In this document: in pieces, positions 17,078-58,094 of the stretch | Layout: every line of letters begins with the position of its first letter | Position numbering within the stretch: position 1 is the stretch's first letter | Position numbers and translations under genes: made by a program | Notes under the pieces: generated by a model | What the model was told of the DNA's origin: nothing | Seen by the model: the letters and a program-made list of their open reading frames with translations, nothing else | The model's database searches: none | NCBI RefSeq assembly: GCF_004343705.1 | Contig: NZ_SKFH01000010.1 | Location: 1-64,000 of the forward strand | Length of the DNA: 64,000 bases | Reading direction: 5' to 3' | DNA from: Flaviaesturariibacter aridisoli | Lineage (GTDB): Bacteria; Bacteroidota; Bacteroidia; Chitinophagales; Chitinophagaceae

Positions 17078-17186
17078 GTGAGCCGTCAGCCGTCAGCCGT
17101 GAGCCCGCAAGGCGCAAAAAAAGATCGGATGCCAAAGGCATCCGATCTTTTTATCAGGCGTCAGCATTCACGGCTCACGCTTCACG
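17078..17186. repeat. Paired inverted heptamer array around a terminator
   Basis: Left array of four GTSAGCC heptamers (17078-17105). Right array of NNNNTCA heptamers in the opposite sense (17157-17186). The inner 51 bases hold the terminator at 17118-17152. CGTGAGCCGT on the left is exactly inverse to ACGGCTCACG on the right. Confidence 0.75.
17118..17152 (-). terminator. Terminator after the ompH gene
   Basis: AAAAAGATCGGATGCC (17118-17133), loop AAA, and its perfect inverse (17137-17152) form a 16-bp stem bordered by A/T runs. It lies downstream of the ompH stop on the minus strand. Confidence 0.92.
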
Positions 17187-17190
17187 AAAC

Positions 17191-17784
17191 TTATTGCTTC
17201 CCGCCGGCTTTGGGCTTCGGGGCAGCGCCGCCGGTGGCAGGAGCAGCGGCGGGGTTACCGGCGCCCTGGGGCAGCTTGATATTGAGCTTGCGGGCCACGA
17301 GCAGGATCATGTCGTCCCCTTGGGGCGCTACGATCAGGTTTTCCTTGCTCAGCACGTAGGTGTAGTTGTTTTCTTTGGCCACCGCGTTGATCGCAGCGTA
17401 TACTTTGCGCAGCACGGGCTCGAGCAGGCTGTTCTTCTTGTTCTCGTAGGCCTGGCCGGCGAGGCTTTGCCAGTTCTGGAGGGTACCGGCGAGCTGCTGG
17501 AGCTCTTCACGCACCTGGGCGCGGACGCCGGCATTGGGGTAGTTCTTTACCGAATCGGCGCCGTTCACCATGCTGTCTTTGCGCTGGAATTCACCGAGGT
17601 AGTACTGGTAGCGGGTGGCCAGGGAGTCCATTTGGTATTTCTGCAGGAGGGTGTCTACGCGACCGAGTTCCGGCATCAGGCTCACTACTTCGTCAACGCT
17701 GATATAACCGATCTTCTGGGCAGAGGCTTGCGAGGCGCCCAGAAGCGAAAAGAGGGCGATCAGGAGAAAAGAGATCTTCTTCAT
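17191..17784 (-). CDS. OmpH/Skp-family periplasmic chaperone
   Basis: 197 residues with a Sec signal peptide (cleavage after ASA/AQK, about residue 22). The OmpH fold starts with KIGYISVDEVVSLMPEL, followed by a long charged helical region and the closing NNYTYVLSKENLI stretch. Skp-like proteins carry unfolded outer-membrane proteins across the periplasm to BamA, encoded two genes upstream. The C-terminal Pro/Ala/Gly/Lys tail (about 172-197) is extra. A related paralogue lies immediately upstream. Confidence 0.88.
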   Translation of the reverse strand: MKKISFLLIALFSLLGASQASAQKIGYISVDEVVSLMPELGRVDTLLQKYQMDSLATRYQYYLGEFQRKDSMVNGADSVKNYPNAGVRAQVREELQQLAGTLQNWQSLAGQAYENKKNSLLEPVLRKVYAAINAVAKENNYTYVLSKENLIVAPQGDDMILLVARKLNIKLPQGAGNPAAAPATGGAAPKPKAGGKQ

Positions 17785-17861
17785 GTTTGTGGTTGTGTGA
17801 TTTATACTATGAGGGGTGGCGGAGAAGCGGGGTTGTGCGTCCCTTCCGTTTTTGCGTTTAT

Positions 17862-18377
17862 TTAATTACGTACACCCAGCTCGCGAAGCACTTCGTCGCT
17901 CTTCTCCAGCTTGGGGTCGGCAAAGATAACAGTTATTCCCTCGCTTTTGTCGAGGATGAAATCGTAACCGCGCTGCACAGCCACCTTCTGAACGGCGCTG
18001 TAAACCTTGTCCTGCACGGGTTTGATCAGTTCCTGGCGCTTCTTGAACAGGTCGCCTTCGAAGCCGAAGCGCTGGCGCTGCAGCTCGCGGAGCGCCTTCT
18101 CCTTGTTGAAGATCTGGTCCTCGCGCTTCTTGCGCAGGTCTTCGCTCAGCATCACCTGCTCGGCCTCGAAATCCTTGTACATCTTGTCGAGATCGGCCTG
18201 CAACCGGTCAATCTCCTTCTGCCAGCCGGCAGCGATCCCATCGAGGTTTTGCTGCGCGGCTTTGTACTCCGGCATTTTGTCGAGGATGTACTTGGTGTCG
18301 ATCACGGCATAGCGCTGCGCCTGGAGCGAGGCGGCGGCCATGAGGCTGCAAAAGGCCAACACAATAAATTTCTTCAT
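17862..18377 (-). CDS. OmpH/Skp-family periplasmic chaperone, second copy
   Basis: 171 residues from ATG 18377, signal peptide cut near SLQAQ/RYA. RYAVIDTKYILDKMPEY opens the Skp fold. A long coiled-coil segment (about 45-125) rich in Lys, Glu and Gln follows, then RGYDFILDKSEGITVIFADP. It lies 32 bases downstream of bamA and 77 bases upstream of the other ompH gene, in the Bacteroidota order bamA-ompH-ompH. The reading frame stays open far upstream, but the signal peptide fixes the start. Confidence 0.9.
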   Translation of the reverse strand: MKKFIVLAFCSLMAAASLQAQRYAVIDTKYILDKMPEYKAAQQNLDGIAAGWQKEIDRLQADLDKMYKDFEAEQVMLSEDLRKKREDQIFNKEKALRELQRQRFGFEGDLFKKRQELIKPVQDKVYSAVQKVAVQRGYDFILDKSEGITVIFADPKLEKSDEVLRELGVRN

Positions 18378-18409
18378 GATCGCGGAAGCTTGTTTAGGTG
18401 AAAGGATCG

Positions 18410-21145
18410 TTATTCTGGTTCGAAGCCCAGCATGAAGGTGAAGCGGCTCGCATTCTTGATGCTGCGGTCGGCCGGGTTGAGGCGGTCGAGGCCCACACCG
18501 TAATCGAAGCCGAGCATACCGAACATCGGCAGGAAGAAGCGCATACCCACACCCACGCTGCGGCGGAGGCGGAAGGGATTGTACTCCTTGAAGTTGTTCC
18601 AGCCGTTGGCGGCGTCGAAGAAGGTCAGCCCATAGATCGTGCTGCTCTGGTTGCGCACCAGCGGGTAGCGCAGCTCGAGCTGGTACTTGTTGAAAATCGT
18701 GAAGTACGAGCCGGCTTGCGAAAGGTCGGGGTTCACCGACGGGTCGGGCTTGTCGAACACCGGGTAGCCGCGCAACGACACCACGTCGTAGCCGAGGATG
18801 CCGTAGCTGTTGGTCAGACCGTCGCCACCGAGCTGGAAGCGCTCGAAGGGTGAGAAGTCGAGCTTGTTGGTGTAGCGGCCCATGAAGCCGTACTTGGCAG
18901 CCACCTTCAGCACCAGCTGGCGGTTCTTCTCGGCGCCGCCGGGTCGGCCGATGGGCACGAACCACTCGGAGGTAAAGCGCCACTTATGGTACTCGGGGTT
19001 CTTGTAAGGGTTGCCCGAGGTGATGATGCTCTTATCGAACAGCGAATACGGCGGGGTGAACTGCACCGAGGCCACCATGTTGGAGCCGCCCGTGGGATAT
19101 TGCGGGTCGAACACCGAGGAGCGCTGCAGGGCCAGCTTGAACGAAATGTTGTTGGCGGTACCGTTGTTGAAGCCGAAGCCCGAGAAGGCATAGTTCTTCA
19201 GCTTGTACTGCGTGTAGTTGATCGAGTAAAGAAGGCTGAAGTAGTCGTCGGGCCACTTGAGCTGCTTGCCGAGCGATACGCCTACACCGATCGTGCGCAG
19301 GTATTGCTGGCTGGCAAGGGTCTTGTCGTAGAAGCCGGCCGACGAATACAGGTTGGCGAACTTCGAATTGTAGAACGAGATCGTGAAGGGGTTGCGCTTC
19401 TTGCCGCCCAGCCAGGGCTCGGTGAACGAGAAGTTGTAGGAGCGGTAGGCCGCGCCGTTGCTCTGCACGCGGATCGACAGCTTCTGTCCGTCGCCCGATG
19501 GCAGCGGATCCCAGGTCGACTTCTTCAGGATGTTGCGGATCGAAAAGTTGTTGAAGGTAACACCGAGCGTACCGGTGAGGCCCACGCCACCGCCCCAGCC
19601 GGCAGAGAGCTCGAGCTGGTCGGAGGATTTTTCCTCGAGGTTCCAGTTGATGTCCACCGTACCGTCGCTCTGGTCGGGCACCACGCCGGGGTTGATCTTT
19701 TCCTGGTTGAAGAACTGCAGCTGCGCCAGTTCGCGCTGCGAGCGAATGAGGTCGGAGCGGCTGAACTTCTCACCGGGCACGGTACGCAGCTCGCGGCGGA
19801 TGACATAGTCTTTCGTCTTGTCGTTGCCGTAGATATTGACGTTCTTGATCGTCGCCTGCGGACCTTCCACGATGCGGATCTCGTGGTCGATGGTATCGTT
19901 ATAGATAGAGGTTTCCACCGGTTCGGCGCGGAAGAAGAGGTAGCCGTCGTCCATATACAGGGCCGAAATGTCGCCGCCGTCGGCGGAGAGTTCCTTGCCC
20001 ACGCGCTTATTCAGCAGGCCGAGGTTGTATACGTCGCCCTTGCCGATGCGGAGCACCGACTGCAGGATCGAGTCGCTGTACTTCGTGTTGCCGCGGAAGG
20101 TGATGTTGCCGAAATAGTAGCGGCGGCCTTCGTCCACCTTGATCTCCACGTTCACGCTGCCGTTGGGCAGGCGAGTAAGGGCGGTGTCCACGATCCGGGC
20201 ATCGCGGTAGCCGAGGGCGTTGTAGTAATCGAGCACCTTCTCGAGGTCTTCGTGGTACTTTTTCTCGTCAAACTTGGCGTTGCCGAACAGCTTGAGGCGG
20301 ATGTAGGGATCGAGTACCGCCTTCGTTTTGGAGGGCGACAGGAAGCCCCAGTCTTTCAGGTATTCGCTGAAGGTGATCTTTTCGTTGGAGCCGAACTTGC
20401 CGGGTGCTTCCTGCGGGTGCAGGGTGAGCTTGCCCATTTCCTTCGTGCCTTTCATTTCCTTTTTCAGGCGCAGGTCTGAGGCGGCTTCGTTGCCGTAGAA
20501 GTTGACCGAGTTCACCTTTACCTTCTGGCCTTTGTCAACAATGAAGGTGAGGATGTTGGAGTTGACCAGGGCCGGGTCGGGACGCTCTTCGATGCGCACC
20601 TTTACGTACTGGTAGCCTTTGGCGGCGAAATATTTCCGGATCACGTCGAGGGCGATGCGGCGGGTATTTTCGGTGATGATGGTGGAGCGCACAAGCCCGA
20701 CCTTGTCTTTCAGGTCGTCGGCTTCGGTCTTTTTAACGCCCACAAAGCTGAAGTTGCCGAGGCGCGGGCGCTCCTGGAGCGCCAGCTCGAGGTCGATGAC
20801 GTCGCCTTCAAGCGAGGTGATGTAGATCTGTACGTTCGAGAAAAAGCGCTGGCGCCACAGGTTCTGGATCGCTTTGGCAAACACGTCCGAGCCCGGGATC
20901 ATGATCTGCTGCCCCACCTGCAGACCGGAGATCGACAGGATGATGGAGGTGTCGAGGGTCCGGATGCCCGTTACGTGGATCGTGCGGATGGTGTAGGGCT
21001 TCGGGCGTCCTTCTTCGATGTTCTGCAGGGTCGGGTCTACCGACGTGGGCCGGTGGCTCGTGTCCGGTACCTGGGCATGCAGGAGTGTGGCCGTCGTGCA
21101 AAAACACAGGGCCAGGAAGAGAAAACGAAGAAGAAAATGGCGCAT
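18410..21145 (-). CDS. bamA: Outer-membrane assembly factor BamA
   Basis: Inserts beta-barrels into the outer membrane. 911 residues: signal peptide (to about LLHAQ, 25), POTRA domains (about 50-480; for example TIRTIHVTGIRTLD, VNSVNFYGNE, YYFGNITFRGNTKYSD, IKNVNIYGNDKTKD) and a C-terminal 16-strand barrel. The loop-6 motif appears as VSLRGYPVF and the chain ends in an aromatic-containing strand, FTFMLGFEPE. It is longer than the E. coli protein, as usual in Bacteroidota. It is flanked by uppS upstream and two skp-like genes downstream. Confidence 0.96.
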   Translation of the reverse strand: MRHFLLRFLFLALCFCTTATLLHAQVPDTSHRPTSVDPTLQNIEEGRPKPYTIRTIHVTGIRTLDTSIILSISGLQVGQQIMIPGSDVFAKAIQNLWRQRFFSNVQIYITSLEGDVIDLELALQERPRLGNFSFVGVKKTEADDLKDKVGLVRSTIITENTRRIALDVIRKYFAAKGYQYVKVRIEERPDPALVNSNILTFIVDKGQKVKVNSVNFYGNEAASDLRLKKEMKGTKEMGKLTLHPQEAPGKFGSNEKITFSEYLKDWGFLSPSKTKAVLDPYIRLKLFGNAKFDEKKYHEDLEKVLDYYNALGYRDARIVDTALTRLPNGSVNVEIKVDEGRRYYFGNITFRGNTKYSDSILQSVLRIGKGDVYNLGLLNKRVGKELSADGGDISALYMDDGYLFFRAEPVETSIYNDTIDHEIRIVEGPQATIKNVNIYGNDKTKDYVIRRELRTVPGEKFSRSDLIRSQRELAQLQFFNQEKINPGVVPDQSDGTVDINWNLEEKSSDQLELSAGWGGGVGLTGTLGVTFNNFSIRNILKKSTWDPLPSGDGQKLSIRVQSNGAAYRSYNFSFTEPWLGGKKRNPFTISFYNSKFANLYSSAGFYDKTLASQQYLRTIGVGVSLGKQLKWPDDYFSLLYSINYTQYKLKNYAFSGFGFNNGTANNISFKLALQRSSVFDPQYPTGGSNMVASVQFTPPYSLFDKSIITSGNPYKNPEYHKWRFTSEWFVPIGRPGGAEKNRQLVLKVAAKYGFMGRYTNKLDFSPFERFQLGGDGLTNSYGILGYDVVSLRGYPVFDKPDPSVNPDLSQAGSYFTIFNKYQLELRYPLVRNQSSTIYGLTFFDAANGWNNFKEYNPFRLRRSVGVGMRFFLPMFGMLGFDYGVGLDRLNPADRSIKNASRFTFMLGFEPE

Positions 21146-21361
21146 AAATGAGGATTCAGTCAGACGAGAAGCAGTGTACAGTCGCTTTGGGCGGCAAATT
21201 AAAGGGAAATTTGGTAGCTATTTGTTAAAAGGAAGCCCGTCCCGGGCGGGTTTTGAACGTTTTCAGTTCCGTGTTTTACATTCCTTGCCCTCGCCTTTGC
21301 AACGCGCAAAGAGAGCGGGACCTTCCTGGGTGACAAACCCAAAACGCAAAACCTAAAACGT

Positions 21362-22108
21362 TTACGTTTTCACCTGCTCGCCCGTTTTACCAAAGCGGCG
21401 CTCGCGGCCCTGGTAGTCGAGGATGGCCTCGTAGAGGTTTTCCTTCCGGAAATCGGGCCAGCGTACCTGGGTGAAATAGAGTTCCGCGTAAGCGAGCTGG
21501 TAGAGCAGGAAATTCGAGATCCGGTACTCGCCGGAGGTGCGGATCATGAGCTCGGGGTCGGGGAAGGCGCTGGTGGTGAGGTATTGCTGCAGCGTGTTCT
21601 GGTCGATCTCCTCTACCGCGAGGCGGCCCTGCTTCACCTCCCAGGCGATGTTCTTGACGGCGTTGAGCAGTTCCCAGCGCCCGCTGTAGCTGAGCGCCAT
21701 CACGAGCTGCAGGCCCGTATTGTCTTTGGTGATGTCGAGCGCTTCCTGTAGTTCGCGCTGCGCGTAGGCCGGAAGCATCTGGAGGTCGCCGATGACGTGC
21801 AGCTTGATGCCGTTCTTGTGCAGGCTTTCCACCTCGTTGCGGATGGTGGTCACCAGCAGCTCCATGAGGCCCACCACTTCGTATTCGGGACGGTCCCAGT
21901 TTTCGGTCGAAAAAGCATAGAGCGTGAGGTAGCCCACGCCCAGCTCGGCGCAGCCCTCCACGATGTCGCGTACGCTTTCCACGCCGTGGTAGTGGCCAAA
22001 GAGGCGGTCTTTGCCCTGCTCCCGGGCCCAGCGGCCGTTGCCGTCCATGATAATGGCGATGTGGCGCGGCAGGCGCGTTTTATCGATCTGGGCGAGGAGC
22101 TCTGACAT
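21362..22108 (-). CDS. uppS: Isoprenyl transferase / undecaprenyl diphosphate synthase
   Basis: Builds the C55 lipid carrier for peptidoglycan and O-antigen-like glycans. 248 residues from ATG 22108. The family motifs are HIAIIMDGNGRWA (catalytic Asp), GHYHGVESVRDIV, LTLYAFSTENW and PDPELMIRTSGEYRISNFLLYQLAYAE. The frame is open for 18 more codons upstream, but homologues start at this position. The gene sits between porG-like and bamA, its usual place in this phylum. Confidence 0.96.
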   Translation of the reverse strand: MSELLAQIDKTRLPRHIAIIMDGNGRWAREQGKDRLFGHYHGVESVRDIVEGCAELGVGYLTLYAFSTENWDRPEYEVVGLMELLVTTIRNEVESLHKNGIKLHVIGDLQMLPAYAQRELQEALDITKDNTGLQLVMALSYSGRWELLNAVKNIAWEVKQGRLAVEEIDQNTLQQYLTTSAFPDPELMIRTSGEYRISNFLLYQLAYAELYFTQVRWPDFRKENLYEAILDYQGRERRFGKTGEQVKT

Positions 22109-22315: not shown

Positions 22316-22337
22316 TATTATCTGTGCGATCCGCGTG

Positions 22338-27408: not shown

Positions 27409-27472
27409 GTGAGGCGTGAAGCGTCAGGCGTGCGATAAAGGCGCGTTCACGGTTCACGCCTCACGATCACGG
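27409..27472. repeat. Paired inverted heptamer array
   Basis: Left: four GTGARGC-type heptamers (27409-27436). Right: four NNTCACG-type heptamers (27445-27472). The outer 16 bases GATCGTGAGGCGTGAA (27405-27420) are a perfect inverse of 27453-27468. It sits between the cvpA stop and the hydrolase start. Confidence 0.8.
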
Positions 27473-32757: not shown

Positions 32758-33717
32758 GTGCTTTACCGCATTCTCAAAGCCTACGCCCGGCTAACCATAC
32801 GCATCTTCTGCCGCCATGTATTCGTGAACCGGCCCCAATGGCTGCACACGGAAGGCCCGCTGCTGCTGGCGGCCAACCACCCCAACTCCTTTCTCGACGG
32901 CATGATCCTCACCATCCTCCTCGACCGCCCGCTCTATTCGCTGGCGCGCGGCGACGCCTTCGGCCACCCGAGCCTCCGGAAGCTCATCGACCTGTTTCAC
33001 CTGTTGCCCGTCTACCGCAGCTCCGAGGGCGCTGAAAACCTGGGCCAGAACTACAGCACCTTCGCCGCCTGCCGCGAGGTGTTTCGCCGGAACGGCATCG
33101 TGCTCATCTTCTCGGAGGGCGGCTGTGTGAACGAATGGAAGCTGCGCCCGCTGCGCAAGGGCACGGCCCGCCTCGCTTCCTATGCCTGGCAGGAAGGCAT
33201 TCCGCTCACGGTGCTGCCGGTGGGCCTGAACTACAGCCCTTTCCGCAACTTCGGCAAGAATGTATGGATCCGCTTCGGCCGCCCCCTCGACCGCGCCACC
33301 GTAGAACGACAACCCAGCGAAGGACTGCAGTTCGGGGAGTTCAACCGCCAACTGCACGCGCAGCTCAATGGGCTGGTATGGGCGCTCGACGCGCAGGACC
33401 CGGAGGCGCTGAAAGAACGGCTCAGCGTTCCGCTGCCGCTGCCGGCGCGCATCGCGCTGGCACCCCTGGCTCTTGCCGGCACCCTGCTGCACGCGCCGCT
33501 GTATTTCGCGGTGAAGGGCTTCACCACCTGGCGCTTCAACAACGACCATTTCGACTCGGTGATGGTGGCCCTGCACCTGATTCTCTACCCGCTCTACCTG
33601 ACGTTGCTGGCGGGGCTGAGCCTGCTTTGGTTCCCGGGCTGGGTGGCCGCGGCCGTATTTCTACTGCTGCCCCTGACGGCATGGTCCGCGGTGCAGCTGA
33701 AGCCACAAATAAGGTAG
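32758..33717 (+). CDS. PlsC-like lysophospholipid/glycerol-phosphate acyltransferase
   Basis: 319 residues from GTG 32758 (VLYRILKAYARLTIRIFCRHVF); the frame runs further upstream to 32650 but without family character. The acyltransferase motifs are NHPNSFLDG (the HxxxxD catalytic pair) and FSEGGCVNEWKLRP (motif III). Two or three C-terminal transmembrane helices (about 235-310) anchor it. It would acylate a lysophospholipid or a related lipid at the inner membrane. A long hairpin repeat begins right after the stop. Confidence 0.85.
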   Translation: MLYRILKAYARLTIRIFCRHVFVNRPQWLHTEGPLLLAANHPNSFLDGMILTILLDRPLYSLARGDAFGHPSLRKLIDLFHLLPVYRSSEGAENLGQNYSTFAACREVFRRNGIVLIFSEGGCVNEWKLRPLRKGTARLASYAWQEGIPLTVLPVGLNYSPFRNFGKNVWIRFGRPLDRATVERQPSEGLQFGEFNRQLHAQLNGLVWALDAQDPEALKERLSVPLPLPARIALAPLALAGTLLHAPLYFAVKGFTTWRFNNDHFDSVMVALHLILYPLYLTLLAGLSLLWFPGWVAAAVFLLLPLTAWSAVQLKPQIR

Positions 33718-33718
33718 A

Positions 33719-33875
33719 GGAAAGCGGAAGAAGGGTCGGAACCGCGAAGAAAAAAAGAGAATAAGTGGTTTCGCGGTGAAAAATTGAATACACGCAAATC
33801 TTAGCGTACCATCTTCTTTTCTTCTTCTCTTCGCGGTGAAAAACTTTTTTTACTTCTATAACCTTTCTCTGAAAA
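33719..33875. repeat. Long hairpin repeat A
   Basis: Shares GGGTCGGAACCGCGAAGAAA (33733 onward), a CTTAGCGTA-type core, a CTTCTTTTCTT block and AACCTTTCTCT with copy B at 35245-35388. It is internally an imperfect palindrome: CGCGAAGAAAA on the left pairs with TTCTTCTCTTCGCGG on the right. The two copies sit directly behind the PlsC-like gene and behind the TlpA-DUF547 gene. Confidence 0.8.
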
Positions 33876-35244: not shown

Positions 35245-35388
35245 GGAAGCAAAGGGAAAAAGGGTCGGAACCGCGAAGAAAAGAAGTGAATAAGGTATTC
35301 GCTAAGATGAATGTATTCTTAGCGTAACCACTTCTTTTCTTATTCCCTTCGCGATTCAAAACCTTCTTTTCTTCGAAACCTTTCTCTC
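35245..35388. repeat. Long hairpin repeat B
   Basis: Second copy of the repeat described at 33719-33875, in the same orientation and three bases after the TlpA-DUF547 stop. Here the inner arms are cleaner: TCGCTAAGA and TTCTTAGCGTA, with outer CGCGAAGAAAAGAAGTGAA pairing with ACTTCTTTTCTTATTC. Confidence 0.8.
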
Positions 35389-35390
35389 AC

Positions 35391-35439
35391 CGGTAGGCCC
35401 CGGTTACCAATTAACTAATCAACCAATAGACCAATAAAC
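35391..35439 (+). repeat. Octamer leader element, copy 3
   Basis: GGTAGGCCCCGGTTACC followed by CCAATTAA, CTAATCAA, CCAATAGA, CCAATAAAC. Unlike the other two copies, it does not precede a plus-strand gene but the tsf terminator. Confidence 0.7.
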
Positions 35440-35440
35440 A

Positions 35441-35471
35441 AACAAGCCCCGTCGGATCGACGGGGCTTGTT
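35441..35471. terminator. Terminator of the tsf operon
   Basis: AACAAGCCCCGTCG (35441-35454), loop GAT, perfect 14-bp inverse (35458-35471). On the minus strand it follows tsf and is trailed by T-rich sequence. Confidence 0.92.
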
Positions 35472-35494: not shown

Positions 35495-36334
35495 TTAGCC
35501 GAGGGCTACACGCTTGAAGTCGATCACTTTCAGGTCGCTGTCGACGCTCTTCAGGTAGTCGGCTACCGACTTCGAAGAGTCTTTCACGAAGGCCTGTGCG
35601 CTGAGGGTGCTTTCCTTGAAGAAGGCGTTGAGCTTGCCCTGGGAGATCTTCTCGAGCATTTCCTGGGGCTTGCCGGCCATCTTGGGATCTTGCTGGATGA
35701 TGTCCATGATCACCGCTTTCTCGCGCTCGACCACGTCGGAGGGTACGGAGCTTTCGTCGACGGCTACGGGGTTCATCGCGGCGATCTGCATGGCGATGTC
35801 CTTACCGGCGTCGCCGGCGTCTTTGTTGAACGCTACCAGCACACCCATGCGGTTGGCGCCGTGGATGTAGGAAGCCACGTAGGGAGCTTCCACGCGCTCG
35901 AAGCGGGCAACACCGATCTTCTCGCCGATGGAGGCCAGCTTGTCGTTGATCAGGTCGGAAACTTTGGCACCATTCACGGTCACCTCGTTGAGTTCTTCGG
36001 CGCTCTTCACGTTGTTGGCAACGGCAGCGTCGGCGATGCTCTGGGCGAAGGCTACGAATTCGGCGTTCTTCGACACGAAGTCGGTCTCGCAGGAGATGGT
36101 CACGATGAAGCCGGTCTTGTTGTCGGCGGTGGTCTTGGCGATCACCACACCTTCCTTGGCTTCCCGGTCGCTGCGCTTGGCGGCCACTTTCTGGCCCTGC
36201 TTGCGCAGCCAGTCGATAGCGGCTTCAAAGTCGCCGTTGGTCTCGGTGAGGGCCTTGCGGCAATCCATCATACCGGCGCCGGTTGCCTGGCGCAGCTTGT
36301 TGATATCCTGGGCTGTAATCGTTACAGTAGACAT
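35495..36334 (-). CDS. tsf: Elongation factor Ts
   Basis: Recharges EF-Tu with GTP. 279 residues from ATG 36334 (MSTVTITAQDINKLRQATGAGMMDCRKALTE). The TDFVSKN motif of the core domain appears in SCETDFVSKNAEF; PYVASYIHGANRMGVLVAF and DIAMQIAAMNP follow. The leader carries a four-unit TTTGTRG heptamer array. It is last in the rplM-rpsI-rpsB-tsf group. Confidence 0.97.
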   Translation of the reverse strand: MSTVTITAQDINKLRQATGAGMMDCRKALTETNGDFEAAIDWLRKQGQKVAAKRSDREAKEGVVIAKTTADNKTGFIVTISCETDFVSKNAEFVAFAQSIADAAVANNVKSAEELNEVTVNGAKVSDLINDKLASIGEKIGVARFERVEAPYVASYIHGANRMGVLVAFNKDAGDAGKDIAMQIAAMNPVAVDESSVPSDVVEREKAVIMDIIQQDPKMAGKPQEMLEKISQGKLNAFFKESTLSAQAFVKDSSKSVADYLKSVDSDLKVIDFKRVALG

Positions 36335-36344
36335 GAGGGAAAAG

Positions 36345-36372
36345 TTTATAGTTTGTAGTTTGAAGTTTGTAG
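36345..36372 (-). repeat. Heptamer array in the tsf leader
   Basis: Four TTTGTAG-type units on the plus strand (TTTATAG, TTTGTAG, TTTGAAG, TTTGTAG), read as CTACAAA units in the direction of tsf, 11 bases before its start codon. No inverted partner in this gap. Confidence 0.8.
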
Positions 36373-36421
36373 TTGGCGTTCGAAAGGGGAACACGAACTC
36401 TTCTTTCGAACCGGTATTAAT

Positions 36422-36455
36422 ACAATACAGTTCCGCAAATGCGGAACTGTATTGT
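36422..36455. other. 16-bp perfect hairpin between rpsB and tsf
   Basis: ACAATACAGTTCCGCA (36422-36437), AA, and TGCGGAACTGTATTGT (36440-36455). No T-run follows on the minus strand, so it may be an RNA processing or attenuation structure and not a plain terminator. Next to it, CGATCTAAG recurs at 36484 and 36503. Confidence 0.6.
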
Positions 36456-36510
36456 TATAGAAAGATCTGTTAGAAAGAACTGTCGATCTAAGAAAGACGA
36501 ATCGATCTAA

Positions 36511-36536
36511 GTGCCCCCTTTGGGGGACAGGGGGCT
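36511..36536. repeat. GC-rich hairpin after rpsB
   Basis: AGTGCCCCCTTTGGGGG-type element directly behind the rpsB stop, an inverse copy of 6218-6242 with one mismatch. Confidence 0.7.
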
Positions 36537-41780: not shown

Positions 41781-41784
41781 GGGG

Positions 41785-41885
41785 TTTGTGGTTTGTTGTT
41801 TGTAGTTTGTGGTTGGGGAACGACCAATTCTTTGCAACTTAACCGCGCATCGCGGAACTACAAACCACAAATTCCAAACTCCAAA
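41785..41885. repeat. Paired inverted heptamer array between divergent genes
   Basis: TTTGTGG, TTTGTTG, TTTGTAG, TTTGTGG (41785-41812) face CTACAAA, CCACAAA, TTCCAAA, CTCCAAA (41858-41885). The 45-bp centre contains the hairpin CCGCG-CAT-CGCGG. The arrays abut the start codons of both divergent genes. Confidence 0.85.
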
Positions 41886-41889
41886 CGAT

Positions 41890-42234
41890 TTGGACGATAA
41901 ACGCTGTTGCTATTGCGGGCGGGCATTCAACCACCACGTGATCCCGACCATCGATCATCTCATTCCGCAGTCGAAGGGCGGGGCCAAGACGGCTGCCAAC
42001 AAGCGCCGCTGCTGCCGCGCGTGCAATACGCAAAAGAAGGCCCTGATGCCCCACGACTTCCTGGCCTACCTGCAGGGCGAATACGACCGTGCGGGCAGGG
42101 CGGCCACGGCCCGCAACCTCCTCGAAAAGATCGCCCATACCCGCGAGGTGGTCCACTACGTCAACAGCGCCGGCCCGGCGGTGTTCCGCACCGAAGCGGA
42201 TTATTTGTGGTTCAAAAGGAGATACCTCAAATAA
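41890..42234 (+). CDS. HNH endonuclease-like protein
   Basis: 114 residues if it starts at TTG 41890 (MDDKRCCYCGRAF), just after the heptamer array; no ATG is in frame. Two CxxC pairs (CYCG, CRAC) bind zinc, and TIDHLIPQSKGGAKTAANKRRCCRACNTQKK is the HNH core with the catalytic His. Small free HNH proteins of this kind are common in Bacteroidota, but their DNA target is unknown. A longer frame from 41809 would be translated through the repeat and is unlikely. Confidence 0.75.
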   Translation: MDDKRCCYCGRAFNHHVIPTIDHLIPQSKGGAKTAANKRRCCRACNTQKKALMPHDFLAYLQGEYDRAGRAATARNLLEKIAHTREVVHYVNSAGPAVFRTEADYLWFKRRYLK

Positions 42235-42235
42235 T

Positions 42236-42322
42236 TTCAGATTTCGGATCGCAGATTCCAGATTTAGGACCCTGTTTCCCTCATTGACGGGGCATCCCTG
42301 AATCCGAGATCTGAGATCTGGA
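42236..42322. repeat. Paired inverted heptamer array, NNCAGAT type
   Basis: TTCAGAT, TTCGGAT, CGCAGAT, TCCAGAT (42236-42263) oppose ATCCGAG, ATCTGAG, ATCTGGA (42302-42322). Begins right after the HNH stop codon. Confidence 0.8.
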
Positions 42323-52985: not shown

Positions 52986-53009
52986 AGCAAGTGTGTATAG
53001 GGGTTAAAG

Positions 53010-53022: not shown

Positions 53023-53083
53023 TAATAACACATTAAAGAATGGTGAAAATTTTTTATTTGACCTGGTTGGGGCTGCAGGATTC

Positions 53084-53247
53084 GTGAGCCGTGCGCCGTC
53101 AACCCTGAGGGCGCGGTGCGCGGCCGCGAAACGGATGCTGTTGGCGTTCATTCTTTGTTATTGCGCTAGCGTTCACGCTTCACGCCTCAAGCTTCACGCC
53201 TCACGCCTGACGCCTCACGCCTCACGCTTCACGCCTCACGCCTCACG
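53084..53247. repeat. Paired heptamer array: 4 + 11 units
   Basis: Left: GTGAGCC, GTGCGCC, GTCAACC, CTGAGGG (53084-53111). Right: eleven contiguous YYTCACG-type heptamers (53171-53247) in the inverse sense, ending six bases before a -7-like box for xth. This is the longest array in the window. The 59-bp spacer holds no gene. Confidence 0.85.
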
Positions 53248-53252
53248 TTTCG

Positions 53253-53260
53253 TATCTTGC
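53253..53260 (+). promoter_or_regulatory. -7-like box TATCTTGC upstream of xth
   Basis: Five bases before the xth start codon, identical to the box before paaZ. The mRNA would have almost no leader. Confidence 0.4.
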
Positions 53261-53264
53261 CCGC

Positions 53265-54044
53265 ATGAAGATCATTTCTTACAACGTCAACGGGCTGCGG
53301 GCCGCCATCAAGAAGGGTTTCCTCGAATGGCTGCGCACCCATCCCGCCGACGTGATCTGCATCCAGGAGGCCAAGGCGCAGCAAAGCGACGTCGATGCCG
53401 GGGCCTTCGCCGCGCTTGGTTACGAAGACCATTGGTTCTGCGCCCGGAAGAAAGGTTACAGCGGCGTCACGGTGTTCACGAAGCGCAAGCCCGACGACGT
53501 GCAGTGCGGCACCGGCCACCAGGTGAGCGACGACGAAGGCCGCGTGATCCAGCTCGATTTCGGCAAGCTGCGCCTCATCAACGCCTATTTTCCTTCGGGC
53601 ACCTCCGGCGACGAGCGCCAGACCTACAAGTACCAGTGGCTCAACGAATTTTACGACTACGTGCAGGGCCTGCGCGCCACCCATCCCAACATCCTGCTGT
53701 GCGGCGACTACAACATCGCCCACCAGGAGATCGACATCCACGACCCGAAGGGCAACAAGAAAAGCAGCGGCTTCCTGCCCGAGGAGCGCGCCTGGATGGA
53801 TAAATTTTACAGCAACGGCTGGGTGGATTCGCTGCGCCAATTCAACAACGACCCGCATCATTACAGCTGGTGGAGCCAGCGCTCGCCTACGGTGCGGGCG
53901 CAAAACAAAGGCTGGCGCATCGACTACATCTCCGTTACCGAACCGCTGAAACCCGCGCTGCGCGCCGCTTCCATCTACCCCGACGTGAAGCACAGCGACC
54001 ACTGCCCGGTGTATGCCGAACTGGATGAAACCCTGATCAAGTAA
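53265..54044 (+). CDS. xth: Exodeoxyribonuclease III
   Basis: Apurinic/apyrimidinic endonuclease and 3'-5' exonuclease, 259 residues. MKIISYNVNGLRAAIKKGF, IQEAKAQQSDV (metal-binding Glu), LINAYFPSG, LLCGDYNIAHQEIDIHDPK and the catalytic SDHCPVYAEL with His are all present. WRIDYISVT marks the ExoIII branch. Monocistronic, followed by a REP-like element. Confidence 0.95.
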   Translation: MKIISYNVNGLRAAIKKGFLEWLRTHPADVICIQEAKAQQSDVDAGAFAALGYEDHWFCARKKGYSGVTVFTKRKPDDVQCGTGHQVSDDEGRVIQLDFGKLRLINAYFPSGTSGDERQTYKYQWLNEFYDYVQGLRATHPNILLCGDYNIAHQEIDIHDPKGNKKSSGFLPEERAWMDKFYSNGWVDSLRQFNNDPHHYSWWSQRSPTVRAQNKGWRIDYISVTEPLKPALRAASIYPDVKHSDHCPVYAELDETLIK

Positions 54045-54057
54045 TTTCCAATGTAAC

Positions 54058-54184
54058 CGTCATTGCGAGCGTAACGAAGTGGAGCGAAGCAATCTCTTAT
54101 AGGCCGCGCCGGTAGCCCCATATGAAGCCGCAGAGCCAAAAGATTGAGATTGCTACCCTCGCCTCAGGCGAGGTCGCAATGACG
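54058..54184. repeat. REP-like palindromic element, copy 3
   Basis: Outer arms CGTCATTGCGA (54058-54068) and TCGCAATGACG (54174-54184); inner GAAGCAATCTC and GAGATTGCT. More diverged in the centre than copies 1 and 2. It fills the gap between xth and the next gene. Confidence 0.8.
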
Positions 54185-54200
54185 TCACAAAAATGTTTTT

Positions 54201-54506
54201 ATGATCGTTTACAACGTTACCGTCAAAGTCGCTGCCGACATCGCCGAAGCCTGGCTGCGCTGGCTGAAGGAAGAACATGCGCCGGCGATCATCGCCACGG
54301 GCTGCTTCGACTCCTTCCGGGTGCTGCGCCTGCTGGAGCAGGACGACAGCGAGGGTCCTACGTATGCCATTCAATACCACAGTGCCGGCGCCGAAGGCTA
54401 TGCGCAATATTGCACCGATTTCGCGGCCCGCTTCCGCGATGAAAGCTTCGCGCGCTGGGGCGATCGCTTCATCGCTTTCCGCTCGGTGATGGAAGTTATC
54501 CACTGA
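54201..54506 (+). CDS. DUF4286-family protein
   Basis: 101 residues, a small ferredoxin-like fold: MIVYNVTVKVAADIAEAWLRWLKEEHAPAIIATGCFDSFRVLRLLEQ and TYAIQYHSAGAEGYAQYCTDFAARFRDESFARWGDRFIAFRSVMEVI. This pattern is conserved across Bacteroidota as DUF4286. The function is unknown. Begins 16 bases after a REP-like element. Confidence 0.85.
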   Translation: MIVYNVTVKVAADIAEAWLRWLKEEHAPAIIATGCFDSFRVLRLLEQDDSEGPTYAIQYHSAGAEGYAQYCTDFAARFRDESFARWGDRFIAFRSVMEVIH

Positions 54507-54723
54507 TTTGACGGTCTTGTGCACAATGGAAATGACAGTACGCTGAAACCCTTACGGGGCCGGAGTTTTCAACAACGAAGTAAGCGACGGGGGCTCTGAA
54601 ATACAAGCTGGGCAAGGGCTTGCGCGTTTTGATAATATGCGCAAAAATTCGTATTTGCCGCAAACCCGCCCCCCGCGCGGATTTCAGCCCAAGGGCCTGC
54701 ACCGCCAAAAGGCTGAAAAATAT

Positions 54724-54753
54724 TTTGTCGGTAGGGAAAACCGTATAAATTTG
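54724..54753 (+). promoter_or_regulatory. Promoter of the HU gene
   Basis: TTTG (54724-54727), 18 bases, TAAATTTG (54746-54753): close to the Bacteroidota consensus TTTG-N19-TAnnTTTG, 30 bases before the HU start codon. The clearest promoter in the window. The rest of 54507-54723 shows no gene. Confidence 0.7.
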
Positions 54754-54783
54754 TTGCATTCTAAATCATTAACTCTATCCACT

Positions 54784-55053
54784 ATGAACAAAGCTGAACT
54801 GATTGCCCAGATCGCTGAAGAGGCTGGCATCACCAAGACCCAGGCGAACATCGCCCTGGATTCTTTCGTTGACTCCGTAACCAAGACCCTGAAGAAAGGC
54901 GACAAAGTAACCCTCGTTGGCTTTGGTACCTTCTCCGTGTCGAAGCGCGCTGCCCGCAACGGCCGCAACCCCCAGACCGGCGAAGTGATCAAGATCAAGG
55001 CCCGCAAAGTGGCCCGCTTCAAAGCTGGTAAAGAACTCTCCAGCAAGCTCTAA
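54784..55053 (+). CDS. DNA-binding protein HU
   Basis: 89 residues: [89 protein letters not shown]. This gives the two-helix dimer core and the beta-ribbon arm with GRNPQTGE and the conserved Pro that kinks DNA. The frame is open 49 codons upstream, but the family start is ATG 54784. Nucleoid structure; likely highly expressed from the strong promoter upstream. Confidence 0.97.
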
Positions 55054-55071
55054 CTGCTGAGACATAACTGT

Positions 55072-55099
55072 AAAGAACCCCGCTCACGCGGGGTTCTTT
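55072..55099 (+). terminator. Terminator of the HU gene
   Basis: AAAGAACCCCGC (55072-55083), TCAC, GCGGGGTTCTTT (55088-55099): 12-bp stem, with a T-rich tail that merges into the heptamer array. Confidence 0.93.
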
Positions 55100-55100
55100 G

Positions 55101-55248
55101 TTTGTAGTTTGAAGTTTGTGGTTTGGAGTTGGCTGCGCTCAGCGTGACAAAAAGCCCTGTCATCCTGAGCTTTGCCGAAGGATGGCCGGCGCCCCTAAAC
55201 CGCTTGCGGGCACTGCGAAACCACAAACCACCAACCACAAACCACAAA
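55101..55248. repeat. Paired inverted heptamer array upstream of bTHX
   Basis: TTTGTAG, TTTGAAG, TTTGTGG, TTTGGAG (55101-55128) oppose CCACAAA, CCACCAA, CCACAAA, CCACAAA (55221-55248). The 92-bp spacer contains a CATCCT/AGGATG hairpin. The right array ends seven bases before the bTHX -7 box. Confidence 0.85.
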
Positions 55249-55254
55249 CTTGAC

Positions 55255-55262
55255 TATTTTTG
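55255..55262 (+). promoter_or_regulatory. -7 box of the bTHX gene
   Basis: TATTTTTG followed by C, a perfect TAnnTTTGC, 25 bases before the start codon. No TTTG lies at the -33 position; the heptamer array occupies it. Confidence 0.55.
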
Positions 55263-55287
55263 CAGCCTAACTTAAAAATTTACGAAC

Positions 55288-55407
55288 ATGGGACGTGGTG
55301 ATAAAAAAACCAAAAAAGGAAAAACATTCAAGGGCTCTTTCGGCAAATCGCGCCCTGCAAGCGCCAAGAAGATCACCGGCAACCAGGTTGCTGAGAAGAA
55401 AGCTTAA
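55288..55407 (+). CDS. 30S ribosomal protein bTHX
   Basis: 39 codons: begins MGRGDKKTKKGKTFKGSFG, then KSRPASAKKITGNQVAEKKA. MGRGDKKTxxGK and GSxGKSRP are the THX signature; Thermus bTHX binds the head of the 30S subunit in a cavity of 16S rRNA. The protein is tiny, basic and easily missed by length filters. Both flanks carry heptamer arrays, in opposite orientation, so the gene is bracketed by inverted repeats. Confidence 0.9.
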   Translation: MGRGDKKTKKGKTFKGSFGKSRPASAKKITGNQVAEKKA

Positions 55408-55488
55408 AGGAGTTTGTAGTTTGTAGTTTGGGGTTTGTAGTTGGCTGACGCCGGCCTATAAATGACGAACAATAGAACAGAAATCTGT

Positions 55489-55505
55489 GGGAGCCCGGCG
55501 CTCCC
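55489..55505 (+). terminator. Terminator of the bTHX gene
   Basis: GGGAGC-CCGGC-GCTCCC followed by TTTTCTTTT. Confidence 0.8.
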
Positions 55506-55518
55506 TTTTCTTTTGCCT

Positions 55519-55547
55519 ACAAAGGCGCTGCATCGCAGCGCCTTTGT
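55519..55547 (-). terminator. Terminator-like hairpin of pdxH
   Basis: ACAAAGGCGCTGC (55519-55531), ATC, GCAGCGCCTTTGT (55535-55547): perfect 13-bp stem, downstream of pdxH on the minus strand. Confidence 0.75.
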
Positions 55548-55598
55548 TGTCGTCGCTTGCGCAACCACAAACTACAAACCACAAACTACAAACTTGTC

Positions 55599-56246
55599 TT
55601 ATGGCGCCAGCCGCTCCCGCTTCCAGGCGCCGTTGTCTTCGAGGGTATACTGCAGGCGGTCGTGGAGGCGGCTCGGGCGGCCCTGCCAGAACTCCACGAT
55701 GATGGGCCGCACAACGTAGCCGCCCCAGAACTCGGGTCGATGGATGTGCGTGCCGGCCATCACCCCCGCCTGCTCGGCGTAGGCTTCCTCCAGCCACTCC
55801 CTCCCCGGGATCACGAGGCTTTGGGGCGAGGTCCAGGCGCCGATGCGGCTGCCTTCGGGACGCGATTCAAAATAGGCGTCGGAGTCGGCCGCGGGCACCT
55901 TCTGCACAAGTCCGGTCACGCGTACCTGCCGCTCGAGCTCCTTCCAGAAAAAAACAAGACAAGCCCGCGGGTTCTCCGCCAGCTGCATGCCTTTAAACGA
56001 CTGGTAGTTGGTGAAAAACACGAACCCGTTTGGGTCGAAGCCTTTCAGCAACACGATCCGCGCCGAGGGCATCCCGTCGGGCGAGGCCGTGGCCAGCGTC
56101 ATGGCGTTCACCTCGTCGATGCGGCTTTCGAGGGCCTCGCTCCACCAGCGCTGAAACTGCTCCATGGGATTGTCGGCGGCATTGCTTTCCAGTAATTCAT
56201 GCGACGCGTAGTCTTTGCGGATATCGGCGATGGAGCGGTCGAGCAT
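55599..56246 (-). CDS. pdxH: Pyridoxamine 5'-phosphate oxidase
   Basis: Makes pyridoxal 5'-phosphate with FMN. 215 residues: DNPMEQFQRWW, NAMTLATASPDGMPSARIVLLKGFDPNGFVFFTNYQSFKG (FMN site), ACLVFFWKELERQVRVTG, ESRPEGSRIGAWTSPQS, and the C-terminal PEFWGGYVVRPIIVEFWQGRPSRLHDRLQY with the substrate Arg/His. Monocistronic; its start is divergent from the heptapeptide-repeat ORF. Confidence 0.96.
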   Translation of the reverse strand: MLDRSIADIRKDYASHELLESNAADNPMEQFQRWWSEALESRIDEVNAMTLATASPDGMPSARIVLLKGFDPNGFVFFTNYQSFKGMQLAENPRACLVFFWKELERQVRVTGLVQKVPAADSDAYFESRPEGSRIGAWTSPQSLVIPGREWLEEAYAEQAGVMAGTHIHRPEFWGGYVVRPIIVEFWQGRPSRLHDRLQYTLEDNGAWKRERLAP

Positions 56247-56312
56247 GGGGCAAAAGTAACCTTCGGGAAGGGTTTAGAAAGGTTTAGGGGGTTTAGAGCG
56301 GTTGGTAGCCGG

Positions 56313-56606
56313 ATGGGGCCGTCCGGACAGGCGCTCCCGAACGATTTCTACCGTATACAGAATTCGTTCTGTCCGCAACAGAATCTGTTCTATGGAAAAG
56401 AGAATTCATTCTATCCGGAACAGAATCCGTTCCTCAAAATGGGGAACGTTTTCTGTCCGGAACAAAACAAATTCTACCCGGAACAGAATAAATTCTATGT
56501 GAACGGGAATTCATTCTATCCGGGACAGAATTCGTTCCTCAAAAGGGGGAACCCGTTCTACCCGGACGGGAACCAATTCTATCAGCCCGTAAACTCGTTT
56601 ATCTGA
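56313..56606 (+). CDS. Heptapeptide-repeat protein (candidate novel family)
   Basis: 97 codons if started at ATG 56313 (MGPSGQALP, then repeats). From 56340, 12 consecutive 21-base units encode N-x-F-[YCL]-x-x-x, for example NSFYPEQ, NKFYPEQ, NPFLKMG, NSFYPGQ, NPFYPDG; a 13th begins NSFI and ends at TGA. Asn and Phe are kept in all 13 units with both AAC/AAT and TTC/TTT codons, while residue 2 changes freely (D, S, L, P, V, K, Q). No signal peptide, no known domain. The frame is open further upstream across the pdxH start, so the real start is uncertain. It may also be an untranslated minisatellite. Confidence 0.5.
   Translation: MGPSGQALPNDFYRIQNSFCPQQNLFYGKENSFYPEQNPFLKMGNVFCPEQNKFYPEQNKFYVNGNSFYPGQNSFLKRGNPFYPDGNQFYQPVNSFI
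56340..56591. repeat. 21-bp minisatellite, 12 units
   Basis: Twelve contiguous degenerate 21-bp units of the form GAACAGAATTCRTTCTATCCG with no spacers. Many units contain the near-palindrome GAACnGAATTCnGTTC. Coincides with the heptapeptide ORF. Confidence 0.9.
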
Positions 56607-56646
56607 TTGGGGAACAGCCTGGTCCCCTTAAGAACTCCTCAAAACC

Positions 56647-57258
56647 TTAAAAACCCTCCCTTGTAAGGCTCCGGAGCAGGGCCAGTTGTTTTTTAAGGCG
56701 CTCGTTCTCTTCGTAGTCGAGGAGGGATTCCTTGCGGGCTTCGGCCAGTTCGGCCTGGAGGCGCTCGTTTTCGGAGCGGAGGGCGTCGAGGCCGTATTGC
56801 TGGTCGAGGTGCTCGCTGCGCAGCTGCTCGTAGGCCAATTGCAAGGCTTCCCGCTCCAGCAGGGCGCCTTTCCAGGCCGCCATGCGTTCCTGCAGGGCCG
56901 CCAGGCGCAGGGCCAGGGCGTCGAGTTGCAGGGCCAGTTCCTCGAAGCGGGCGGCGCTTTCGCGTTGGAGGTGGGCGGTTTCTTCCTTTTGCAGGCTGGC
57001 GCGGCGGCGTTCCAGCAGCCATTGGATGTCGTCGGCTTCCAGCTCGTCGGCCTCCAGGCCGGGGGGCAGGAAGGAAGGCACAGCGCCGTCTTCCGTGCGG
57101 GCAGTAACCGTGGGTTCGACGGGTGCCGCCCGGTGCCGGCCGGCGCGCAGGGGCAGCGGGCCACTCGCGGGCAGGGGCAGGAACGCCCGGAACCGCCAGG
57201 CGAGGAAGGCGCCGGCGACGAGGCAGATCAGTAGGAATACGGTGAGCATGGACAGCAT
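56647..57258 (-). CDS. Membrane-anchored coiled-coil protein
   Basis: 203 residues: one N-terminal transmembrane helix (MLSMLTVFLLICLVAGAFLAWRF), a short Arg/Pro linker, and a long predicted coiled coil (about 75-200) rich in Leu, Glu, Arg, Ala with SLQKEETAHLQRESAARFEELALQLDALALRLAALQERM and LRSENERLQAELAEARK. I recognise no family. An alternative ATG three codons downstream is possible. It converges on the heptapeptide-repeat ORF with 40 bases between the stops. Confidence 0.75.
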   Translation of the reverse strand: MLSMLTVFLLICLVAGAFLAWRFRAFLPLPASGPLPLRAGRHRAAPVEPTVTARTEDGAVPSFLPPGLEADELEADDIQWLLERRRASLQKEETAHLQRESAARFEELALQLDALALRLAALQERMAAWKGALLEREALQLAYEQLRSEHLDQQYGLDALRSENERLQAELAEARKESLLDYEENERLKKQLALLRSLTREGF

Positions 57259-57299
57259 TTGTTTGGCGCCACCAAGCTACAAGGATTTCCGGAAACGGC

Positions 57300-58016
57300 T
57301 TAGCCGCCGTTGACGAGTGTGCCTACTTTCTCGCCGGTTACGACGCGGCGGAGGTTGTCCTTCCGGTTCATGTCGAACACCACGATGGGCAGCGTGTTCT
57401 CCATGCACAGCGTAAAAGCCGTCATATCCATCACGTTGAGCTTCTGCGTAATGCATTCCTGGTAGGTGATGGTGCCGTAGCGGGTGGCGGTAGGATCCTT
57501 CTCGGGGTCGGCGGTATAGATGCCGTCCACGCGGGTGCCTTTCATGATGACGTCGGCCTTGATCTCGATAGCGCGCAGCGAGCCGGCGGTATCGGTGGTG
57601 AAGTAGGGGTTGCCCGTGCCGGCGCCGAAGATCACCACGCGGCCTTTTTCGAGGTGGCGGATGGCGCGGCGGCGGATGTAGGGCTCGGCGATTTGCTCCA
57701 TCTTGATGGCGCTTTGAAGGCGCGTATACACCCCCTGCTTTTCGAGGGCGGCCTGCAGGGCCATCCCGTTGATGACCGTGGCCAGCATACCCATATAATC
57801 GCCGTGGGCACGCTCGATGCCGGTCTCGGCCTCGTTCATGCCGCGGTAGATATTACCGCCGCCGATCACGATGGCCACCTGCACACCCAGATCCACGATC
57901 GTTTTGATGTCGAGGGCGTATTGCGTCAGCACCGAGGTATCGAAGCCGAAGCTTTTGTCGCCCATCAGTGATTCACCGGAAAGCTTGAGCAGGATGCGTT
58001 TGTATTTGGGGAGCAT
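57300..58016 (-). CDS. pyrH: UMP kinase
   Basis: Phosphorylates UMP to UDP. 238 residues from ATG 58016 ([26 protein letters not shown]). [41 protein letters not shown] and [22 protein letters not shown] are PyrH motifs. The frame is open far upstream, but the family start is fixed. A TATCTTCG box lies 20 bases before the start, preceded by a degenerate heptamer array. Confidence 0.96.
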
Positions 58017-58036
58017 AAGTGTAGAGGGTTTCGGCG

Positions 58037-58044
58037 CGAAGATA
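58037..58044 (-). promoter_or_regulatory. -7-like box upstream of pyrH
   Basis: TATCTTCG on the minus strand, followed by CG, 20 bases before the pyrH start. The heptamer array at 58053-58094 lies immediately upstream. Confidence 0.4.
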
Positions 58045-58052
58045 AGAGGGGG

Positions 58053-58094
58053 TTTGGAGTTTATAATTTGGAGTTTGGGGGGTTGGAGTTTGGC
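58053..58094 (-). repeat. Degenerate TTTGGAG heptamer array upstream of pyrH
   Basis: TTTGGAG, TTTATAA, TTTGGAG, TTTGGGG and more degenerate units on the plus strand. No inverted partner seen. The rest of the gap to 58260 shows no gene. Confidence 0.65.

Follow-up and report, generated by a model that had tools for sequence, protein, structure and literature searches.

Facing arrays of seven- and eight-base-pair repeats at gene borders in Flaviaesturariibacter aridisoli: one layout, many words

The first 64 kb of contig C10 of Flaviaesturariibacter aridisoli (hereafter the window; 60% GC, genome of 4.37 Mb) contain seven loci at which two short tandem arrays of 7-bp units face each other in inverse orientation across a spacer. 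Since the unit sequence varies from locus to locus, the question becomes what holds a 7- or 8-bp layout while its sequence changes. A preliminary description of the window had named these seven loci; direct reading finds facing period-7 arrays at all of them, with about 3-5 units per arm, and confirms the 4 + 11 units at 53084-53247. The answer that we tentatively favour, judging from the sequences, is that the arrays may be dispersed non-coding inverted-repeat elements, resembling repetitive extragenic palindromic (REP) sequences, bacterial interspersed mosaic elements (BIMEs) and miniature inverted-repeat transposable elements (MITEs), which would insulate transcription in both directions and undergo rapid sequence turnover.

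Arrays were detected by a lag-identity scan and counted at a score of at least 12. The own-genome sample comprised 838,025 bp, that is, the window and 39 stretches from five other contigs, and 85% of it is coding. It holds 88 period-7 arrays. One mononucleotide shuffle of the same sequence gave none and the control lags (2-6 and 8-13) gave 0-14 each, while lags 14 and 21, with 52 and 34 arrays, are harmonics of 7. In the window, Tandem Repeats Finder (TRF) reported period 7 in 10 of 21 rows. Lag 7 is also the commonest of lags 2-13 in the five congeners sampled (35 arrays in 400 kb; 9, 7, 8 and 24 in 200 kb each). Most arrays span about four (44/101) or five units (32/101), the remainder being of about three (16/101) or longer (9/101). 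The period-7 words of this genome include GTTTGTR, CGTGAGG/CGTCAGC, GGAAGTC, TGATGTC, GATTTCA and GGTGAAT, and there are period-8 words as well, for instance GGTTTATT; at least six words coexist with one and the same layout. The proposal of an architecture common to at least three unrelated sequences is right as to the architecture, but the word families exceed three and periods 8 and 9 occur too. The rarer arrays, of which GAAGGTTTT is an example, have period 9 at loci L041, L047 and L059 and period 8 (AACATGAG) at L264 and L265. Cyanobacterial short tandemly repeated repetitive (STRR) sequences are also heptameric tandem repeats, a likeness by description; we know of no paired inverted design among them.

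A partner was defined as a reverse-complement array of score at least 12 lying no more than 250 bp away. Such a partner accompanies 50 of 103 arrays of the own-genome sample, compared with 0 for reversed, 3 for complement and 4 for direct-copy controls; pairing is thus far more frequent than chance, and the first of the outcomes that would have refuted the preliminary description is not observed. The strand of an array was taken as the G-richer one; in CGTCAGC-rich arrays, where G equals C, T minus A was used instead, which is wrong for the array at 17077. Leaving aside five arrays tied in composition, G-rich arrays have the partner on the right in 22 cases and on the left in 2, and C-rich arrays on the left in 20 and on the right in 1. 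Throughout the own genome, a strict inward pattern GTTTG..CAAAC was matched 7 times, at 4 sites, and its outward counterpart never. Inverted ends (score of at least 11), a measure that also picks up ordinary hairpins, were found in 50/437, 20/164, 11/105, 8/102, 7/86 and 22/115 intergenic regions of six genomes of the genus, the controls giving 0-1 when ends were exchanged among regions, 0-6 for reversed and 0-4 for direct comparison. A subset of arms, from two word families, carries inner motifs: GCTGACGCC-like and GCGATGCG-like sequences occur in 11/83 and 7/83 arms of the own genome, against about 1% of random intergenic 30-mers, and on the outer side of 4/83 and 1/83.

The arrays hug genes. 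Nearly all of them (101/103) are intergenic. The outer end, where the array starts on its G-richer strand, lies within 25 nt of a gene end in 67/101 cases and the inner end in 10/101, and the G-richer strand runs away from the neighbouring gene, into the gap. Unpaired arrays obey the same rule (outer end near a gene 36/51, inner end 9/51). Stop-side arrays begin no more than 13 nt past the stop codon in 42/54 cases, and some of them furnish the stop codon itself; most start-side arrays precede the start by 2-30 nt or by about 55-105 nt, a spacing that looks as if initiation regions or promoters are spared. Genes were predicted by a custom script that missed bTHX, and for this reason its distances of 349 and 357 for two window arrays are wrong. 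In the 45 nt that follow stop codons, autocorrelation peaks at lags 7 and 14 in six of six genomes and at lag 21 in five of six. The arrays do not shorten neighbouring proteins, the mean tail difference being 0.02 amino acids (n 60) versus -0.07 (n 432).

Gene orientation and terminators also bear on the arrays. The share of gaps with inverted ends, a count that takes in ordinary hairpins, is higher for convergent genes (44/164) than for tandem (65/665) or divergent ones (10/185), and ends both inverted and periodic number 18/164, 49/665 and 7/185, respectively. Separate predicted terminators are rarer at array-bearing stop ends (30/120) than at others (279/733; P 0.006), as expected if arrays replace them.

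The layout can also outlive the word at one place. The gap between the convergent genes bTHX (55288-55407) and pdxH (stop codon at 55599) is filled in the window by paired GTTTGTA arms (55412-55593, plus strand), the first of which begins 4 nt past the end of the bTHX stop codon at 55407; the spacer contains two hairpins, one of them scored terminator-like. Congeners (designated by G numbers, the own genome being G000 and its nearest relative G016) have facing arms directly after the stop codon with other words: GCAATTG (G009), GGCAATA (G006), ATGAATT (G004), GAACAAG (G011) and, with period 8, GTTAATAG (G014) and GTTGATAA (G015). Among the 13 species (own included) with both ends placed, the far end being unplaced in G016 and G002, the gap is inverted at a score of at least 9 in 11 and both inverted and periodic in 9, for baselines in convergent gaps of 0.37 and 0.11; the inverted test failed in G008 and G012 and the periodic test in G009 and G013. 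This locus was selected because the own genome has an array there.

The comparison was widened to eight hand-picked gene ends, two of which share one gap; the own row and duplicate loci were taken out manually. At the four ends that carry an array in the own genome, 23 of 49 places in relatives have a periodic array too (bTHX stop 5/10, pdxH stop 9/14, tsf start 7/13, glutamate racemase start 2/12), compared with 3 of 54 at the four ends that lack one (2/14, 1/13, 0/14, 0/13); this comparison omits L211 and L212, which have arrays by eye and no placed start codon, and L372, which lacks an end. A graded period-7/8 score correlates between orthologous ends (Spearman 0.21 at stops, n=253; 0.26 at starts, n=295; 0/2000 permutations each). 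Control lags gave 0.08-0.14, lag 10/11 at stops also reaching P 0.018, and at threshold 11 the score gave P 0.60 at stops and P 0.007 at starts. In 39 syntenic gaps of the own genome and G016, a same-family array is kept in several (17053, 27346, 36334, 14327 and C2 47197), and other gaps have been replaced outright by different sequence. Persistence of place across species is therefore real but uneven: one architecture with different sequences holds within the genome and at some orthologous places between species, and several orthologous loci retain traces of a period of 7 or 8, but presence is not conserved everywhere.

The best defined subfamily, R1, has a full representative at 17078-17193 (plus strand; positions 1-119 of the model), between an OmpH-like gene and the glutamate racemase gene. 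Its left arm (17078-17105, plus strand; TRF and direct reading) has four GTGAGCC/GTCAGCC units and its right arm (17166-17186, minus strand; direct reading) three. Thirteen copies of about 119 bp align over their length in the order heptamer arm, GCGCAATGCGC-like motif, terminator hairpin with an A-tract before and a T-tract after it, GGCGTCAGC, and heptamer arm. The core, at 17123-17147 (either strand) in the window, is GATCGGATGCC-AAA-GGCATCCGATC; with a GC-rich stem followed by a T-tract on both strands, it is a predicted bidirectional intrinsic terminator, identified by alignment and covariation. Compensatory double changes affect 10 of 29 pairs (covariation 0.189 versus 0.085 shuffled, 0/500).

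A covariance model of R1 was run on 38 genomes, the own included, scoring up to 95 candidates per genome and counting both strands of near-palindromes, so that sites are about half of the hits: at least 95 in the own genome, 85 in G016 and 83 in G010. Ten other congeners have 1-25 hits each and five have none; of 20 other genera, one has 5. With stricter filters, R1 matches at 1e-4 were found in 13 of 117 genomes drawn from the family, again including the own. In the top 20 hits per genome, the inner stem is GAACGGATGCC in 11 copies of the own genome and, with compensation, GAAAGGATGCC in 12 of G010, while G016 is mixed (commonest 3/20). R1 is thus a dispersed element that bears a predicted terminator and has been homogenised in two genomes or more; in this subfamily there are, as in MITEs, many full-length copies with terminal inverted repeats. 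In the GTTTG family, only the arms and a few inner bases are common to loci (98% over 45 bp) and the spacers seen differ. The preliminary description had inferred a shared maintenance or copying mechanism, which finds no support here; the dispersal of R1 as a whole element favours ordinary dispersed repeats for that part.

Under the explanation by dispersed elements, their build is unusual: each arm is a short run, of some four units, whose word is 7 or 8 bp long, and the G-richer strand faces into the gap. Once transcribed, facing arms could form a stem that, together with an inner terminator where present, would block or insulate transcription both ways at gene borders. The elements would survive in DNA without other function, and their outer ends would consequently abut stop codons, initiation regions or promoters. 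New words would arise by slippage and replace old ones genome-wide through copying or ectopic conversion, so that the layout outlives the sequence. A lineage-level factor or a slippage bias may also play a part. The explanation as a whole is supported by the pairing and orientation of the arrays, their intergenic, gene-hugging position, the post-stop periodicity, the dispersal of R1 and the persistence of place with change of word. Support for the two-way RNA stem comes from the R1 terminator core, the convergent excess of inverted ends and the deficit of other terminators. If the elements do insulate transcription, they would constitute a fast-evolving source of bidirectional terminators.

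Several results weigh against this explanation. About half of the arrays (53/103; 51/101 in the position set) have no detectable partner. Convergent gaps of the own sample show no enrichment of arrays (13/94 regions; tandem 57/353, divergent 9/84), by which we reject the arrays as plain gene terminators; the fewer terminators at array ends may reflect lack of room alone, and arrays close before start codons weaken the certainty of the two-way stem. In the own genome, an arm resembles its partner no more than it resembles arms from the remaining pairs of its family (P 0.99, n=8; P 0.48, n=6), which a strictly selected stem does not predict; arm matching is similar in G016 and G012 and opposite in G003, by means only. 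In an unselected ortholog set, the thresholded test found no conserved presence (both present at 7/279 stops and 5/307 starts), and the graded score for the pair of the own genome and G016 alone is 0.15 (P 0.22, n=67). Between the own genome and G016, whose divergence limits such a comparison, gaps show replacement, and no clean empty site or target duplication was found. Among the best 45 of 187 regions with a paralogous hit, nothing longer than 80 nt exceeded 87% identity, and hence no recent transposition is seen.

The strongest of the alternatives, although unlikely in our opinion, is a mutational syndrome: in certain lineages, slippage by 7-8 nt during replication, together with template switches from one arm of an imperfect palindrome to the other, would keep writing arrays into any unconstrained DNA and serve no function, and gene-hugging would arise because only neutral DNA tolerates arrays. 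The breadth of the phenomenon speaks for it, with many words and one period in several phyla. At least 116 stretches of named genomes show the paired GTTTG pattern; the 80 matches listed include several from Fibrisoma, Fibrella, Fibrivirga and Spirosoma (taken together below as the Spirosoma group), others from Chitinophagaceae, Saprospiraceae and Bacteroidales, some from Verrucomicrobia and Planctomycetes, two loci of one Hydrogenedentes bin, a cyanobacterium and others. These loci were fetched for GTTTG alone, and after masking of that match they still held 55 period-7 arrays in 550 kb, mostly of other words, 21 of them with an inverted partner (reversed control 2, direct 8) on the side foretold by composition in 19 cases versus 2. 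Patchiness (five further genera of the family yielded one period-7 array in 179 kb) and the matching of arms within pairs of the Spirosoma group (21.9 versus 14.6 when re-paired; n=14 loci, 0/2000) also agree with such a syndrome, and a polymerase-footprint idea for heptamers is cited in the portions available of PMC4679880 and PMC4692102. However, slippage alone yields neither an inverted partner, nor a fixed orientation of the G-strand, nor a single word at dozens of loci; the dispersed R1 elements contain a core that is not repetitive, and the arms do not covary in the own genome. Arm-to-arm templating in that genome is likewise unsupported by the arm comparison, in which n is small. Twelve viral contigs of IMG/VR (L195-L206) also match the paired GTTTG pattern, a few of which (L198, L204 and L206) resemble genuine arrays by eye.

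Two further explanations appear improbable. One is a dedicated, sequence-agnostic writing or maintenance system, present in some lineages, that would lay short inverted 7/8-bp arrays at gene borders, a shift of its template or specificity between species causing the word to be rewritten while a given border retains its layout; telomerase-like templated addition, with products meeting head to head, would give exactly the strand orientation observed. The other, of similarly low probability, is that the arrays bind a sequence-specific protein or small RNA whose drifting specificity drags the word along genome-wide. A word does recur at many loci of one genome, and one place carries different words in different species, but the words coexisting with one layout in a single genome argue against binding, as do the neighbouring arrays that carry unrelated words in 10 of the 35 cases in which arrays share one gap of the own genome, and there is no candidate factor.

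It is slightly less probable still that the arrays are REP elements in the strict sense, GTAG/CGTC-tagged and moved by REP-associated tyrosine transposases (RAYT; Y1_Tnp domain). The own genome has seven Y1_Tnp matches, 12 of 19 genomes searched have at least one, and GTTTGTAG and CGTCAGC units include GTAG and CGTC. In contrast, the array-bearing genome G005 (100% complete) has 46 GTTTG matches and no Y1_Tnp match, which leaves dependence on RAYT unsupported, and the palindrome-plus-unpaired-tag build is absent. In way of life, however, REP elements are the closest system: REP/BIME elements, including the GTAG- and CGTC-tagged ones, are described in the consulted part of Di Nocera 2013 (PMC3733652) as dispersed palindromic extragenic repeats with facing dimers, stem-loops in some spacers, heterodimers and species-particular families. 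The build given there is a palindrome of 20-40 bp that carries an unpaired tetranucleotide tag on one side, and that part describes no period-7 arms, whereas the present arms are period-7 arrays and R1 measures about 119 bp.

The design itself is not new. The preliminary description knew of no paired inverted heptamers; Rehm 2015 (PMC4692102), in the part available, had already reported GGGAATC arrays of Xanthomonas with a four-unit mode, convergent pairs (70 in Xcc and 75 in Xac) and gene-hugging, and had proposed G-quadruplexes, GGGNATC and GGGGA(C/T)T heptamers being known from Xanthomonas and Nostoc. The likeness extends to the 7-bp unit, the intergenic location and the placement, which is near stops for the coding strand and before starts for the non-coding one, and the present arrays are a variant of that paired, four-unit, gene-hugging kind. 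They differ in having many words, the common ones without a G-tract, where the text available of that paper gives one G-tract word type per genome, and in adding period 8, a locus word differing between species and a terminator-bearing subfamily. That four units serve here too as four G-tracts of a quadruplex is very improbable, despite the shared period, unit number, convergent pairs and stop/start placement, because GTTTGTR, CGTGAGG, GGAAGTC, TGATGTC, GATTTCA and the congener word GCAATTG contain no GGG and show the same unit number and placement. Quadruplexes are thereby ruled out on sequence as the general cause: the same unit number, pairing, strand rule and gene-hugging with non-quadruplex words mean that the Xanthomonas explanation is not general.

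Equally remote is the idea of three-frame translation-stop arrays, in which period 7 or 8 with one stop codon per unit closes all frames: the outward strand has 7.9 stops per 100 nt at stop ends versus 2.6 on the other strand, but start-side arrays are equally stop-rich (7.6), all three frames are closed in only 11/44 stop-side arrays (start-side 9/27), and TAG-bearing units are not significantly commoner at stop than at start ends (P 0.086), so that the stop-codon counts refute it. Paired Rho utilization (rut) sites were considered, the distal arm being rich in C and poor in G, and set aside because CTACAAA, the main word, has no YC dinucleotide.

Other heptamers have been described. MacGregor 2015 (PMC4679880), in the available portion, treats TAACTGA direct repeats of Beggiatoaceae, cyanobacteria and some Bacteroidetes, which are likewise intergenic heptamer arrays; they differ in being direct, mostly near starts and of one word, with one inverted case in the main genome. 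The same portion reports that, in the majority of genomes surveyed, heptamers are more abundant than any other class of long simple repeat, and PMC4692102, in its available part, cites Calothrix heptanucleotides. A Porphyromonas gingivalis MITE with an internal minisatellite, described in the accessible part of PMC4596501, is by description similar as a Bacteroidota mini-element including a tandem array. The parts available of PMC3372288 and PMC4060949 held nothing further on bacterial heptamers, and searches of an open-access library of papers found no description of a paired multi-word heptamer design.

The remaining arrays of the window, all on the plus strand save the right arm at 53172, are as follows. 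Paired GTGARGC.../...TCACGC arms with a gap of 16 nt lie at 27409-27472 (direct reading), and the orthologous G016 site carries the same word family. Paired GTTTGTG/GTTTGGA arms occupy 41784-41886 (direct reading), and NNCAGAT-type arms at 42236-42322, between two convergent predicted genes, begin right after a stop ending at 42234. Four degenerate GTGAGCC units at 53084-53111 face about 11 units at 53172-53247 (minus strand; both by direct reading), which end 17 nt before the start codon of xth, encoding exonuclease III. Between an HU-like gene and bTHX, paired GTTTGTA arms at 55100-55249 enclose an 80-nt spacer with a TGTCATCCTGAGC-type repeat, of which the orthologous G016 place (L228) has about five tandem copies.

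Two arrays had been absent from the earlier list. A single GTTTGTA arm at 36343-36374, also present in G016, lies 8 nt upstream of the tsf start with its G-rich strand antisense to tsf; in the tsf upstream spacer (36334-36536), a periodic array precedes the tsf start, with differing words, in 9 of the 15 rows compared, a total that counts the own genome and one duplicate. An AATGAGT array at 14323-14344 takes in the stop codon (TGA) of a gene whose end is at 14327. Rfam gave no match within the window at gathering thresholds, and SusC/SusD-type genes are present, which points to the Bacteroidota. A second dispersed intergenic element of about 150 bp (6218-6368) has full-length copies elsewhere in the genome, up to 82% identical, and another dispersed intergenic repeat (33717-33870 and 35248-35450) has partial copies about 75-93% identical in the own genome, G010 and G016. 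Finally, a 105-bp tandem repeat with a 21-bp sub-period occupies 56357-56566.

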